DNA of 64,000 nucleotides from Pseudomonadota bacterium (GTDB lineage: Bacteria > Desulfobacterota > Binatia > Binatales > Binataceae), in the NCBI GenBank assembly GCA_021325355.1, contig JAJPHI010000009.1, forward strand, positions 310,001-374,000, given 5' to 3'. The notes below the pieces were generated by a model that saw only the letters and a list, made by a program, of their open reading frames with translations, ran no database searches and was not told where the DNA came from. The position numbers and the translations under genes are program-made. Each line of letters begins with the position of its first letter. Position 1 is the first letter of the stretch. This document shows positions 43,502 through 49,034 of this stretch, piece by piece.

Positions 43502-43981
43502 CTAGGAGGTCGGCAGCGGCGAAGGCGTCGGCAGGGTAAAGGTTTCGGGATTTGGCGGCGGCGGCGGCTTGGTTCTCGTCAAGGCGACCTCGTTCGACGG
43601 CGCGCTGACGTAGCCGTCCAGCGTCCGGGCGAGAACCTCGTACTGATAACGCTGACCGAGCTGCGTCTCGTTGTCGATATATTCGAACTCGTGCTCGACT
43701 GAGAAACGTTCCTGGTCGGTCACCGGCAGCTCGACCAGCGGCTCCATCGGACCACCGCCGGTGGAACGCAGGATGACGAAGCCGCCGAGGTCACGCATGC
43801 GGCCGCCGCCGGCATAGGTCGTGGGTCTCTGCCAGGCGAGCTTGATTCCTTCAGGATCCGGCACTGCGCGCAGATCTTCGATACGCGCCGGTCGCGCGAG
43901 TTCGGGAGCAACCGGGGGACCCTTCACGCCGCAGCCGACCAGAGCGATCAGGATTGCAGCAACGAGCAGCCGTGATTTCAA
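43502..43981 (-). CDS. Lipoprotein with LptM-like N-terminus and fibronectin-like domain
   Basis: A short signal peptide ends at the lipobox LVGC (Cys17), followed by CGVKGPPVAPE. That is the hallmark of LptM/YifL lipoproteins, which help disulfide maturation of the LPS translocon. Beyond residue 40 there is an added beta-sandwich like a fibronectin type III module (GIKLAWQRP to YQYEVLARTLDG) and a Pro-rich tail. Typical LptM is only about 60 residues, so the domain is unusual. The start is TTG at 43981, overlapping the argH stop as TTGA. It ends the arginine operon. Confidence 0.75.
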   Translation of the reverse strand: MKSRLLVAAILIALVGCGVKGPPVAPELARPARIEDLRAVPDPEGIKLAWQRPTTYAGGGRMRDLGGFVILRSTGGGPMEPLVELPVTDQERFSVEHEFEYIDNETQLGQRYQYEVLARTLDGYVSAPSNEVALTRTKPPPPPNPETFTLPTPSPLPTS

Positions 43982-45402
43982 GAGAGGCGCTCCCGATTCC
44001 GCAGTTTGCCGAGACGCCGGCGGACGGTTTGCGGGCTGGGGCCGCCGGGCAAATCGCGTGATCGCAGCGAGGCCTCCGGACTCAGGCAACGCAGGGCATC
44101 ACTATCGAATTTATCGCAGTAGCGACGCAGATCTTCGACCGTCAGCCCTTCGAAGCCCTGGTCGGCTTCGCTGCGATCGCGCACCAGCGCGCCGACCACC
44201 TCGTGAGCTTCGCGAAAGGGCACGCCGCGCGCCACCAGATACTCGGCCAGATCGGTGGCAAGCGCGAACCCGCCGGCGCCGCGCCGCATCGCGTCCACGT
44301 GGAATTCGATCCGCGGCCAGAATTGCGCGAGCAGGCTGAGCGCCGGCTTGAGCGTCCGAAGCGCGTCGAAGACCCGCTCCTTGTCCTCCTGCAGATCGGA
44401 GTTGTAGGCGAGCGGCAGTCCTTTAAGCGTCGTCAACATGGCCATCAAAGCACCGACCACACGACCGGTCTTGCCGCGAATCAACTCCATCAGGTCGGGG
44501 TTTTTCTTCTGCGGCATCATCGAGCTGCCGGTGGCAAACTCGTCCGGCAAGGCGATGAAACCGAACTCCGAGGTACTCCATAGGATGATTTCCTCGGCCA
44601 TGCGGGAGAGATGCACGGCGAGCACGCTGGCGGCGAAGAGGAAATCCAGCACAAAATCGCGATCCGAAACCGCGTCGATACTGTTTTCGGCGAGCTTGGT
44701 GAAGCCGAGTTCGCGCGCGACACCCGCGCGATCTAGTGGCAGGGTCGATCCGGCCAGAGCGCCCGCGCCGAGCGGCATCACGTCGCATCGCGCGCGCGCC
44801 TGCGTGAAACGTTCGCGGTCGCGTCCGAGCATCTCGACATAAGCGAGGAGGTGATGGGCGAGGCTAACGGGCTGAGCGCGCTGGAGGTGCGTATAGCCGG
44901 GCATCACCGTTTCGACGTGGCGATCGGCCACGTCGATCAGCGTTCGACGCAAATCGTCGACGAGCGCGACCATCGTGTCAATTTCATCCCGCAGGTACAT
45001 CCGCAGGTCGAGCGCCACCTGGTCATTGCGCGAGCGGCCGGTGTGAAGCTTTTGCCCGGCTTCACCGATCATCTCGGTAAGCCGCCGCTCGACCGCCAGA
45101 TGAATGTCCTCGTCGGCAAGCGTGAAACGAAAGCGGCCCTCGGCGATCTCGCGTTCGATCGCGGACAGTCCGTGGATGATCGCTTCCGCCTCGTCGGCCG
45201 TGACGAGTCCGACACGCGCCAGCATCCGCGCATGCGCGATGGAGCCGCGGATATCGTGGCGGTAAAGCTCGCGGTCGAAGGGCAGCGAAGCGGTAAAGGC
45301 CTCGACCTCCGGCAGGCGCGGACGTTTGAAACGTCCACGCAGCAGGTTGCCTTTGGTCCGACCCGATGGTTTCGAGGGCTGGTTGGAGGCGGCCCGCTTC
45401 AT
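43978..45402 (-). CDS. argH: Argininosuccinate lyase
   Basis: This is the last step of arginine synthesis, splitting argininosuccinate to arginine and fumarate. The fumarase-superfamily signature GSSMMPQKKNP is intact, as are HTGRSRNDQVALDLR and MPGYTHLQRAQPVSLAHH. The ATG at 45402 gives 474 residues with a short basic tip before LLRGRFKRPRLPEVEAF. The preceding Cys-rich small gene ends 64 bases upstream. The LptM-like gene overlaps its stop by 4 bases. Confidence 0.96.
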   Translation of the reverse strand: MKRAASNQPSKPSGRTKGNLLRGRFKRPRLPEVEAFTASLPFDRELYRHDIRGSIAHARMLARVGLVTADEAEAIIHGLSAIEREIAEGRFRFTLADEDIHLAVERRLTEMIGEAGQKLHTGRSRNDQVALDLRMYLRDEIDTMVALVDDLRRTLIDVADRHVETVMPGYTHLQRAQPVSLAHHLLAYVEMLGRDRERFTQARARCDVMPLGAGALAGSTLPLDRAGVARELGFTKLAENSIDAVSDRDFVLDFLFAASVLAVHLSRMAEEIILWSTSEFGFIALPDEFATGSSMMPQKKNPDLMELIRGKTGRVVGALMAMLTTLKGLPLAYNSDLQEDKERVFDALRTLKPALSLLAQFWPRIEFHVDAMRRGAGGFALATDLAEYLVARGVPFREAHEVVGALVRDRSEADQGFEGLTVEDLRRYCDKFDSDALRCLSPEASLRSRDLPGGPSPQTVRRRLGKLRNRERLS

Positions 45403-45466: not shown

Positions 45467-45643
45467 TCAGCGGGTCGGCGGAGTATGACACAGACAACCG
45501 CGCGCCGCGCAACTCGAAGAACCGTTGGGATGGGTAACGTGGACGTCCAGCTTGTGCCCGCACTTTGCACACTCGCCGCTGCGCACCCGCGGCACCAGCT
45601 TGGGCGTCTGACGCGGCGGTCGGAATTGAATCACCTTGCCCAC
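45467..45643 (-). CDS. Small Cys/His-rich protein in the arginine operon
   Basis: Not recognised. A 58-residue frame starts at GTG 45643 and ends at TGA 45467, between argG (stop at 45661) and argH. It reads MGKVIQFRPPRQTPKL, then CAKCGHKLDVHV and SSSCAARGCLCHTPP. Residues C25, C28, H30, C45, C50, C52 and H53 could make a zinc or iron-sulfur site. It has no membrane segment. Only 17 bases separate it from argG, which suggests co-transcription. The absence of a strong Shine-Dalgarno site and the short length lower confidence, but the cysteine spacing is unlikely to arise by chance. Confidence 0.62.
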   Translation of the reverse strand: MGKVIQFRPPRQTPKLVPRVRSGECAKCGHKLDVHVTHPNGSSSCAARGCLCHTPPTR

Positions 45644-45660: not shown

Positions 45661-46881
45661 TTACCGCGCCCGGCCATCGTTTCGCGCCAGGGCGCGCAGG
45701 CGCAGAGAGGCGAGCCTGATAAACCCCTCGGCGTCAGCCTGGCGATAGCCGCCCGCCTCGTCGAAACTGGCCATCATGGGATCATAGAGCGAGTTATCGG
45801 AGCGTCGACCGACGATCGCAACGTTGCCCTTATAAAGCTTCAGTCGGGCCGTTCCTGAAACCCTCGCCTGGATTGCATCAACCAGCGCCTGCAAGGCCTC
45901 CCGCTCGGGGGTAAACCAGTGGCCATTATAGACGCATTCGGCATAGCGAGGCATCAGGCTGTCCCGCAGATGCATCGTTTCGCGATCCAGCGTTAGTTGC
46001 TCGACCGCGCGATGAGCGTGCAGCAGCACCGTGACTCCCGGGGTTTCATAGACACCGCGCGATTTGATGCCGACATAGCGGTTTTCGACGACGTCAACGC
46101 GACCGACGCCGTGGCGGCCGCCGAGCTGATTGGTGTATTCGAGCATCTGGCGGGGAGTTAGTCGCCGTCCATTGATGGCGACGGGATCGCCGTGATCGTA
46201 CTCGATTTCGACATATTCCGGGGCCGCCGGCGCTTTCTCGGGCGCGACGGTCAGGCGAAACATGTCTTCGTAGGGCTCGCGCCACGGATCTTCGAGCACG
46301 CCGCCTTCGAAGCTGATGTGCACCAGGTTACGGTCGGTGGAGTAGGGTTTTTCGGCGGTCACTGGCACGGGAATCTTTTTTTCGGCGGCATAGGCGATCA
46401 TGTCGGCGCGCCCCTTGAAAGGCCAATCGGGATGCCGCCAGGGAGCGATAATCTTCAAATCGGGCGCGAGACGCGCGAAGGCCAGTTCGAAGCGGACCTG
46501 GTCGTTGCCTTTGCCGGTGGCGCCGTGAGCGACGGCGTCGGCGCCCTCGGCACGCGCGATCGTGACCTGACCGCGCGCGATAACGGGACGCGCGATCGAG
46601 GTTCCGAGCAGGTAGTAGCTCTCGTAGACGGCGTTGGCGCGCATCATCGGGAAGACGAATTCCGCCGCGAACTCATCGCGGAGGTCCTGGAAACAGAGCT
46701 TGCTCGCGCCGGTTGCGAGCGCCTTTGCTTCAAGTCCTTCGGTTTCCTCGGCCTGACCGACGTCGGCGCAGTAGGCGATCACTTCGCATCCATAATAGTC
46801 CTTGAGCCAGCGCAGAATGACCGACGTGTCGAGACCGCCGGAGTAAGCGAGCACGATCTTGCGGATACTGGAGTCGGGCAT
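45661..46881 (-). CDS. argG: Argininosuccinate synthase
   Basis: It joins citrulline and aspartate with ATP. The PP-loop is [19 protein letters not shown], followed by the conserved [21 protein letters not shown]. The 406 residues match the usual length. It follows argF after 6 bases. The small Cys-rich gene follows after 17. Confidence 0.97.
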
Positions 46882-46887
46882 GAAACC

Positions 46888-47838
46888 TCAGCTTTGCCGG
46901 GACGGGCCAACGTGATGTTGCAGCACTTCGGGGCGCGACAACCAGACCATCACAGCCTTCTGCGCGTGTAGGCGATTCTCGGCCTGTTCGAGCACCACCG
47001 AGCGGGGCCCGTCGATCACCTCGTCGGTAATCTCCTCGCCGCGATGGGCCGGCAGACAGTGCATCACGAGCGCCTGCGGCTGCGCATGCTGCAACAGCGC
47101 CGCGTTGACCTGGAAATTCCTGAAGGCACGGCGCCGTTTGCCGGCCTCGCTCTCCTGCCCCATCGAGGTCCACGTGTCGGTGTAGATGACGTCGGCGTCC
47201 TTCACGGCGGCAAACGGATCGTCCGTGATGATGCCGAGCTTCTCCTGCTGCAGGCGCGCGACGAAGCCGGGATCGGGCTCGTAGCCGGTCGGACAGGCGA
47301 TGCGAAGCTCGAAGCGCGCCAGCGCTGCCGCCTCGATCCAGCTTTGCGCGAGATTGAAACCGTCGCCGACGAAAGCAATTTTCAGACGGCTGAGATCGTC
47401 AAAATGCGCGCGCAGGGTCTGCAGGTCCGCAAGGAGCTGACAGGGATGGAGTAAATCGGTGAGTCCGTTGATTACCGGCACGTTGGCCTCGCGTGCGAGT
47501 TCAACGCAGATCGAGTGCGAGAAGGTGCGGATCATGATCAGGTCAACCCAGCGCGACAGGTTGCGCGCCACGTCCTTGACCGATTCACGCTCGCCGATGC
47601 CGATATCCTGGGGGGCCAGATAGATCGCATGACCGCCCAACTGCGCCATGCCGGTCTCAAACGTGATCCTGGTGCGCAGCGAAGGTTTCTGAAAGATCAT
47701 GGCGAGGGTCTTGCCCCGCAGATACGGATGTTCGACGCCGGCCTTGGTTTCGATCTTGAGCCGATCCGCCAGGCGCAGCAGGGCCTCGAGTTCGCCGACG
47801 CGCAACGAGCTCAAATCGAGGAAATCGCGCTTGTTCAT
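46888..47838 (-). CDS. argF: Ornithine carbamoyltransferase
   Basis: It converts ornithine and carbamoyl phosphate to citrulline. The carbamoyl-phosphate motif is FQKPSLRTRITFE, the second is LLHPCQLLADL, and the ornithine-binding end is VMHCLPAHRGEEI. The length of 316 is typical. Its ATG overlaps the argD stop (ATGA), showing coupled translation. Confidence 0.97.
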   Translation of the reverse strand: MNKRDFLDLSSLRVGELEALLRLADRLKIETKAGVEHPYLRGKTLAMIFQKPSLRTRITFETGMAQLGGHAIYLAPQDIGIGERESVKDVARNLSRWVDLIMIRTFSHSICVELAREANVPVINGLTDLLHPCQLLADLQTLRAHFDDLSRLKIAFVGDGFNLAQSWIEAAALARFELRIACPTGYEPDPGFVARLQQEKLGIITDDPFAAVKDADVIYTDTWTSMGQESEAGKRRRAFRNFQVNAALLQHAQPQALVMHCLPAHRGEEITDEVIDGPRSVVLEQAENRLHAQKAVMVWLSRPEVLQHHVGPSRQS

Positions 47839-49034
47839 GACGACCCTGGCGCGGCGTTGTGCAATGCCCGTTCGATGATCGCAAGGCCGGCATCGGCTTC
47901 CGCGCGGGTCAGGACCAGCGGCGGCAGCAGACGCAGAACATAATCGGCGGTGCCGTTGACCACCAGGCGTTCGCTGAAGCAGGCTTCCACAACCGGCTTG
48001 ACCTCATGATTAAGCACGACGCCGATAATCATGCCAGCGCCGCGCACCTCACGAACGTTCGGACAGCTCTTAGCGATTTCGCGCAGGCGGCCGATGAGAT
48101 AACCGCCGACTTCGGCGGCGTTCGCCACCACCCCGTCCTCCTCGAGGGCGTCGAACACCGCCAGCGCCGCGGCGCAAGCGATGGGATTGCCGCCGAAGGT
48201 CGAGCCATGTGTTCCGGGCGCCAGAGCGCTCGCCAGCTCCGCCTTCGCCACCATCGCACCGATCGGTACACCCCCGCCCAAGGCCTTGGCCAGCGTGATG
48301 ATATCCGGCTTGATGCCGGCGTGCTGATAGCCGAACAGGCGGCCGGTGCGACCCATCCCGGTCTGTACTTCGTCAACGATCAGCAGGATCTTCGCGCGAT
48401 CGCAGAGCTCGCGCAGCCGACCGAGATAATCGGGACGAGGAGTGACGACGCCGCCTTCGCCCTGAATCGGTTCGACCATGATGGCGCAGGTTTTGTCGTC
48501 GATCGCGCTCTCGACCGCGCGCACGTCGTCGTAGGGCACCAGCTTGAATCCCGGGACCAGCGGCTGGAAGCCCAGATGATACTTTTCCTGACCGGTGGCG
48601 CTCAGAGTGCCGAAGGTTCGCCCATGAAACGAACCGAGCGTTGAGATGAACTCGAAGCGACCGCCGTTCCCATGCCCCCAGCGTCGCGCCAGTTTCAGCG
48701 CCGCTTCATTGGCTTCGGCGCCCGAATTGGCGAAGAACACGCGGCCGTCGCCGAAGGCCCGGCCGATCCGCGCCGCCAGCCGAGCCATCGGCTCGGTATG
48801 AAAGACGTTGCACGCATGCGTGAGCTTTTCCGCCTGCTCCTTGATGGCGCGGACGACGCGCGGATGCCCATGGCCCAGGCTGGTGACCGCCAATCCGGAG
48901 AAGAAATCGAGGTAACGATTCCCGTCGGCATCGTACAGGTAGGCGCCGTGACCGCGCGCGAAGGCGATTGGCATACAGCCGTAGGTATTGATGAGATTGC
49001 TGTGGGCGAGCTCGATAATCTCGGCGTTGGTCAT
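47835..49034 (-). CDS. argD: Acetylornithine aminotransferase
   Basis: This PLP class III transaminase of arginine synthesis has 399 residues. The PLP lysine lies in DIITLAKALGGGVPIGAM, with GEGGVVTP and STFGGNPIACAAALAVF nearby. It starts 2 bases after argB and overlaps argF by 4. It may also serve succinyl-diaminopimelate, as some ArgD enzymes do. Confidence 0.96.
   Translation of the reverse strand: MTNAEIIELAHSNLINTYGCMPIAFARGHGAYLYDADGNRYLDFFSGLAVTSLGHGHPRVVRAIKEQAEKLTHACNVFHTEPMARLAARIGRAFGDGRVFFANSGAEANEAALKLARRWGHGNGGRFEFISTLGSFHGRTFGTLSATGQEKYHLGFQPLVPGFKLVPYDDVRAVESAIDDKTCAIMVEPIQGEGGVVTPRPDYLGRLRELCDRAKILLIVDEVQTGMGRTGRLFGYQHAGIKPDIITLAKALGGGVPIGAMVAKAELASALAPGTHGSTFGGNPIACAAALAVFDALEEDGVVANAAEVGGYLIGRLREIAKSCPNVREVRGAGMIIGVVLNHEVKPVVEACFSERLVVNGTADYVLRLLPPLVLTRAEADAGLAIIERALHNAAPGSS

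Follow-up and report, generated by a model that had tools for sequence, protein, structure and literature searches.

We found that the 58-residue, Cys/His-rich reading frame between argG and argH in the window (the whole stretch of DNA analysed here, 64,000 nucleotides long) is, as comparison of its homologues indicates, a true protein-coding gene under purifying selection, and that it represents a new microprotein family restricted to a single bacterial family. The small protein probably binds metal, judging by its conserved Cys and His residues, and the explanation that we consider most likely, with about an even chance of being right, is a basic-tailed microprotein that would bind zinc and act on nucleic acid or on a nucleic-acid machine. 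This undescribed microprotein is present in every genome of the family in which the locus is visible, its entry into an old operon appears datable, and its set of possible metal ligands is invariant. It is a ready candidate for small-protein studies, in a lineage represented here solely by public metagenome-assembled records.

A small gene within the arginine operon

In the translation of the window, the frame runs from a GTG to a stop codon on the minus strand, and the gene order is argD-argF-argG-small gene-argH, with all genes on that strand. The features are as follows.

43978..45402, minus strand: argH, argininosuccinate lyase, downstream of the small gene, ATG at 45402 (Pfam PF00206, PF14698)
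45467..45643, minus strand: Cys/His-rich protein gene, 58 aa, GTG start at 45643, stop at 45467-45469
45494..45571, minus strand: putative metal-ligand stretch of the small gene, residues 25-50, on to C52 (45488); approximate bounds by codon counting
45661..46881, minus strand: argG, argininosuccinate synthase, directly upstream of the small gene (Pfam PF00764, PF20979)
46888..47838, minus strand: argF-type ornithine carbamoyltransferase (Pfam PF00185, PF02729)
47835..49034, minus strand: argD-type class-III aminotransferase (Pfam PF00202)

An earlier note, made from the letters of the window, had described a GTG start 17 bases after argG, and both translation and spacing bear this out; the stop of the small gene is in turn followed by the ATG of argH after 64 nt. 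The CxxCxH and CxxxxCxCH groups that it had pointed out are also present, formed by C25, C28 and H30 and by C45, C50, C52 and H53, respectively, but the last of these varies: only 5 of the 37 relatives, window included, have His there (otherwise R in 15, Q in 8, E in 6, Y in 2 and K in 1). The putative ligand stretch comprises C25, C28, H30, H35, H38, C45, C50 and C52. Common gene callers apply a minimum length of 90 nt, which the gene exceeds, so that the remark that it falls below common length cut-offs holds for the 60-aa limit of the frame listing but not for such callers. No Rfam match was found in the window between 43000 and 50500, and the site searches gave 2 promoter-like sites versus 1.0 in shuffles and 5 terminator-like sites versus 4.2.

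A short frame that reads by eye as lipoprotein-like follows argH at 43502-43885 of the window (minus strand) and has no Pfam match. Relatives of it, with 46-59% identity, also stand after argH in the loci L035, L036, L064, L067, L068, L069 and L070, and in L067-L069 the next frame resembles diaminopimelate decarboxylase by eye.

Selection on the reading frame

Upon searching the genomes of the same family, we detected a homologue at E <= 0.01 in 37 of 41, and the small-gene frame is stop-free in all 37, the other five frames of the same DNA being stop-free in 3, 22, 28, 7 and 1 of 37. Over 410 of the 666 homologue pairs, namely those with dS between 0.1 and 2 after the other 256 had been dropped, the median dN/dS is 0.26 (Nei-Gojobori). 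For the gap-free members of 58 residues the median is 0.21 in the coding frame (234 pairs), whereas the shifted frames of the same strand give 1.34 (319 pairs) and 1.55 (321 pairs) within the same dS limits. The homologues start with TTG in 19 cases, ATG in 13 and GTG in 5, all at the same conserved motif, by which the starts were placed, so that the start codons are no independent proof of the start.

These results bear on the possibility that the frame is open by chance and untranslated in G+C-rich DNA. Two of the other frames are often stop-free as well (the 22 and 28 of 37 above), and reading by eye found no clear ribosome-binding site before the GTG of the window copy, both of which speak for this possibility. 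However, openness in every homologue, retention of the Cys and His residues and a dN/dS near 0.2 against values above 1 in the frame controls led us to reject this explanation, which we regard as extremely improbable. The earlier proposal of a 58-residue gene at this place is thereby confirmed.

Conserved residues and protein character

Within the alignment, which took in 28 of the 37 proteins, K3, C25, C28, H30, V34, H35, H38, P39, G41, C45, R48, C50 and C52 are invariant in all 28. The pattern of five Cys, three His, V34, P39, G41 and R48 matches all 37 members (36 distinct sequences), in line with the Cys pattern for which a search of related genomes had been suggested. In the genus that we call g9 the first knuckle is CxC instead of CxxC. 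The protein is basic in every member, with a pI of 9.1-11.2, and the net charge of its first 24 residues ranges from +1 to +7 across the 37.

Distribution and origin

The four family genomes in which no homologue was found display no argG-argH junction in their assemblies: the searches turned up only argG in G009, where it runs to within six bases of the end of its contig, only an argH truncated at a contig end in each of G014 and G038, and neither gene in G017. These misses therefore say nothing against the gene. The window's own genome carries one copy, with four further places scoring only E 0.1 or worse.

When the search was extended to the class with a profile, 37 of 148 genomes had the gene, all in the family, and none of the 107 non-family genomes had a homologue at E <= 0.001, among the matches listed and with at most 44 loose candidates scored per genome, a depth at which a distant copy could be missed. 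Strong matches in the draws from the phylum, which covered 297 genomes with a single sequence and 395 with a profile (at most 16 candidates scored per genome among the matches listed for the latter), likewise all fell in family members. Additionally, argG is present in 11 of the 13 outgroup genomes of the class that were searched, with argH behind it in 10 of the 11, and the Cys/His pattern, which finds 37/37 members, was not found within about 1.5 kb of the 11 outgroup argG loci. An argG tree separates the 11 outgroup rows from 38 family rows with an SH-aLRT of 99 (quick method); G009, where the small gene falls in an assembly gap, is labelled as linked in it. Since the gene is absent from sampled outgroups that have argG and argH in place, it probably entered an older argD-F-G-H cluster, between argG and argH, a single time near the base of the family, as the sequence comparison suggests.

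Several weaker matches were set aside. The match in G179, from another family of the phylum (E 6.8e-4), was taken as chance: it lacks H30, P39, R48, C50 and C52, lies in a 49-residue open frame (L102, about 1450-1602) that reads CPECG...VHVDHASG....SC, and has no run of 40 aa or more there that starts with ATG, GTG or TTG; it may instead bear a remote resemblance to the motif's first half. The frame matched in G096 is without the Cys pattern, the weak matches in G237, G176, G050, G299 and G191 (E 0.001-0.01) have stops inside three of the five, and second weak matches in G031 and G020 were taken as chance, the latter having two stops inside. An origin as a phage or plasmid gene gained no support: a search of 50,697 phage records and 72,556 plasmid records with one divergent member gave no match at E <= 1, and of 75 matches to the pattern in viral contigs not one could be confirmed as related.

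Linkage to argG and argH

The small gene follows argG in 34 of the 37 genomes, and in 30 of the 37 it begins 3-44 nt after the argG stop. In 29 of these 30 tight cases argH lies within about 200 nt; in the remaining one (G031), no argH is found before the contig end. In G008, G023, G029 and G030 the distance to the argG stop is 126-528 nt, and in the three genomes of genus g9 (G024, G025 and G026) the small gene lies away from argG and is still conserved. In G026 it stands 9 nt after a frame that by eye resembles a CaiB-type CoA-transferase; neither argG nor argH shares its contig. Every one of the 19 homologues with a TTG start is a tight copy, and ATG is used in six of the seven copies outside the tight group, a distribution that fits translational coupling to argG and suggests that the small gene is coupled in this way.

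The predominant position behind argG points to shared expression, and the persistence of the protein after the loss of argG linkage points to an independent function. The small protein is probably not strictly tied to arginine synthesis.

Other frames were observed around the gene in the looser arrangements. A frame with weak likeness to M48 peptidases lies between the small gene and argH in G023 and G030, and a similar one follows the small gene in G029, where argH is on another contig. These frames (L066 7862-8704, L067 6947-7708 and L068 6621-7361) belong to the first-branching genomes, and only one of the three passes Pfam's cut-off. The interval between the small gene and argH holds an oppositely directed TetR-type frame in G008, G024 and G025 (L069 6414-7142, L070 7787-8503 and L064 7439-8107), the type of the G025 frame being judged from its likeness to that of G024.

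Database and structure comparisons

We found no convincing family match in Pfam, NCBIfam, PHROG or PDB. The best E-values over the 28 members were 0.0089 for Pfam, 0.0055 for NCBIfam and 0.0031 for PHROGs, where the matches were mostly to families of unknown function, and a profile search of PDB reached 0.033 at best. DUF7575 (best E 0.0089, 5 of 28 members), NF038206 and PF09723 were all rejected as family labels. The Zn_ribbon_8 model, which we take to be of the Ruc type, gave a single match among the 28 members, at E 0.12.

AlphaFold predicts the same secondary structure for the window protein (pLDDT 76.7, pTM 0.41) and the G030 protein (pLDDT 72.5, pTM 0.39), with short strands confined to the Cys/His part and a tail free of them. 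Foldseek comparison of the two models with PDB gave best E-values of 2.3 and 0.79, and none at E <= 0.001, many of the weak matches being zinc ribbons of ribosomal proteins, RNA polymerase subunits, TFIIB or primase. VIA-align of 50 chains gave none with Z >= 2, and nothing in the viral structure library was at E <= 0.001. The zinc-ribbon likeness among the structure matches is a hint from predicted models.

Possible functions

The preferred explanation, a zinc-binding microprotein acting on nucleic acid or its machinery, would work as follows. The Cys/His set (CxxC-x-H, H-x2-H and C-x4-C-x-C) would form a zinc-ribbon-like core that holds one or two zinc ions, the N-terminal tail, which is basic and rich in proline, would touch nucleic acid or the ribosome or RNA polymerase, and the protein would serve as a small factor, accessory or regulatory. 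Residence in the arg operon would mainly give steady, translationally coupled expression and is no proof of an arginine-specific task. That the gene adjoins argG in 34 of the 37 genomes counts against this explanation, since it makes an arginine role equally possible. Also against it stand the modest confidence of the structure models, the lack of any significant structure match and the zinc-free C(P)XCG proteins of Haloferax described below.

The main competitor is a small zinc-finger regulator that would control transcription or translation of argG and argH, by analogy with the control of bop by Brz (PMC2253796), and we consider it possible but doubtful, at about one fifth. The position behind argG, within 44 nt in 30 genomes, would fit such a role, and so would the lack of ArgR: none of 143 genomes of the class yielded its C-terminal domain (PF02863) in a search whose control exceeded its threshold in 8 of the 14 known genomes, so that arginine control in the window's class is probably not by ArgR, as far as domain searches can indicate. 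However, genus g9 keeps the protein after linkage to argG has been lost, and in G026 it is off argH too; genomes of sister families are also without ArgR, and the sampled ones manage without the small gene; and no regulatory site was found. The earlier suggestion of a metal-binding regulator of arginine synthesis is thus upheld as to the probable metal-binding type, given the Cys/His set in 37/37 and purifying selection, and weakened as to arginine: the gene follows argG in most genomes, but it is conserved away from argG in g9, and in sampled genomes of sister families the arg genes stand together without it.

A partner of ArgG or ArgH, or a zinc-dependent, redox-switched chaperone for these or in general, and a small metal buffer, metallochaperone or iron-sulfur protein, are both less likely than the arginine regulator. 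The chaperone, which we hold to be unlikely, would suit a small Cys-rich protein whose tail is predicted without secondary structure, and it has a small zinc-binding, redox-regulated precedent in Ruc (PMC7448276), but the single Zn_ribbon_8 match, a Cys/His set and tail side that differ from those of Ruc, and neighbourhoods in which no chaperone genes were noted among those examined argue against it. The metal buffer or carrier, less probable still, could draw on eight invariant Cys/His within about 28 residues and on one member that weakly matches a metallothionein model (E 0.095). Against it, no metal transporter or cofactor gene was noted beside the small gene in the loci examined, and the invariant non-ligand residues K3, P39, G41 and R48 suggest a fold and surface rather than a mere buffer. 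The iron-sulfur adaptor that the earlier note had also offered gained no positive support.

We further consider a more specific and rather improbable proposal, that of a microprotein that would bind two metals, with its five Cys and three His, and that arose once by insertion in the arginine operon. In a class where no ArgR could be detected, it would act as a control factor peculiar to the lineage that responds to metal or redox state and couples arginine synthesis with transcription or translation. If the small protein does control arginine synthesis, it would constitute a new kind of arginine regulator in such a class.

Comparison with known systems

No described family with the five-Cys and three-His arrangement was found, nor was literature on the RGCVC family or on a gene between argG and argH, and among the matches listed from the wider arginine/zinc literature none was relevant by title and abstract opening. 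The RGCVC family (NF038206) is of similar size, with a model of 54 positions, and matches 4 of 28 members weakly (best E 0.0055). However, its curated cut-off of 35 bits is reached in 0 of 41 family genomes, the best member shown scoring 16.6 bits, and in two members shown the match ends before the C-x4-C-x-C part.

Ruc, or Rv0991c, resembles the small protein in being a small zinc-ribbon-type protein with a disordered tail (PMC7448276), but it has four Cys and a C-terminal tail, whereas the small protein has its tail at the N-terminus and combines five Cys with three His.

The closest parallels in manner of working may be the CPxCG-related small zinc-finger proteins found in both archaea and bacteria, such as Brz, HVO_0758 and HVO_2753, which share a length of 50-70 residues and a CxxC knuckle and are often uncharacterised (PMC2253796, PMC11241148, PMC10716476). 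In the published definition, the second Cys/His pair has its residues 2-3 apart and lies 7-40 residues from the first (PMC2253796). The first CPxCG pattern occurs in 24 of 37 members, the window included (CAKCG), and is missing from 13; the whole two-pattern motif occurs in 5 of 37, a count that leaves out the H35-x2-H38 pair, which by counting lies 6 residues from the first pattern, and that the window protein enters only through the non-conserved H53. The small protein further differs in its second half, C-x4-C-x-C, and in three extra invariant His. Of the 14 C(P)XCG proteins purified in a study of Haloferax, 5 contained no zinc, a difference that AlphaFold2 was unable to predict (PMC11241148); Brz regulates the neighbouring bop gene (PMC2253796). 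Because of the counts for the first pattern and the whole motif, we do not file the small protein under the CPxCG-related group, but it may work like its members.
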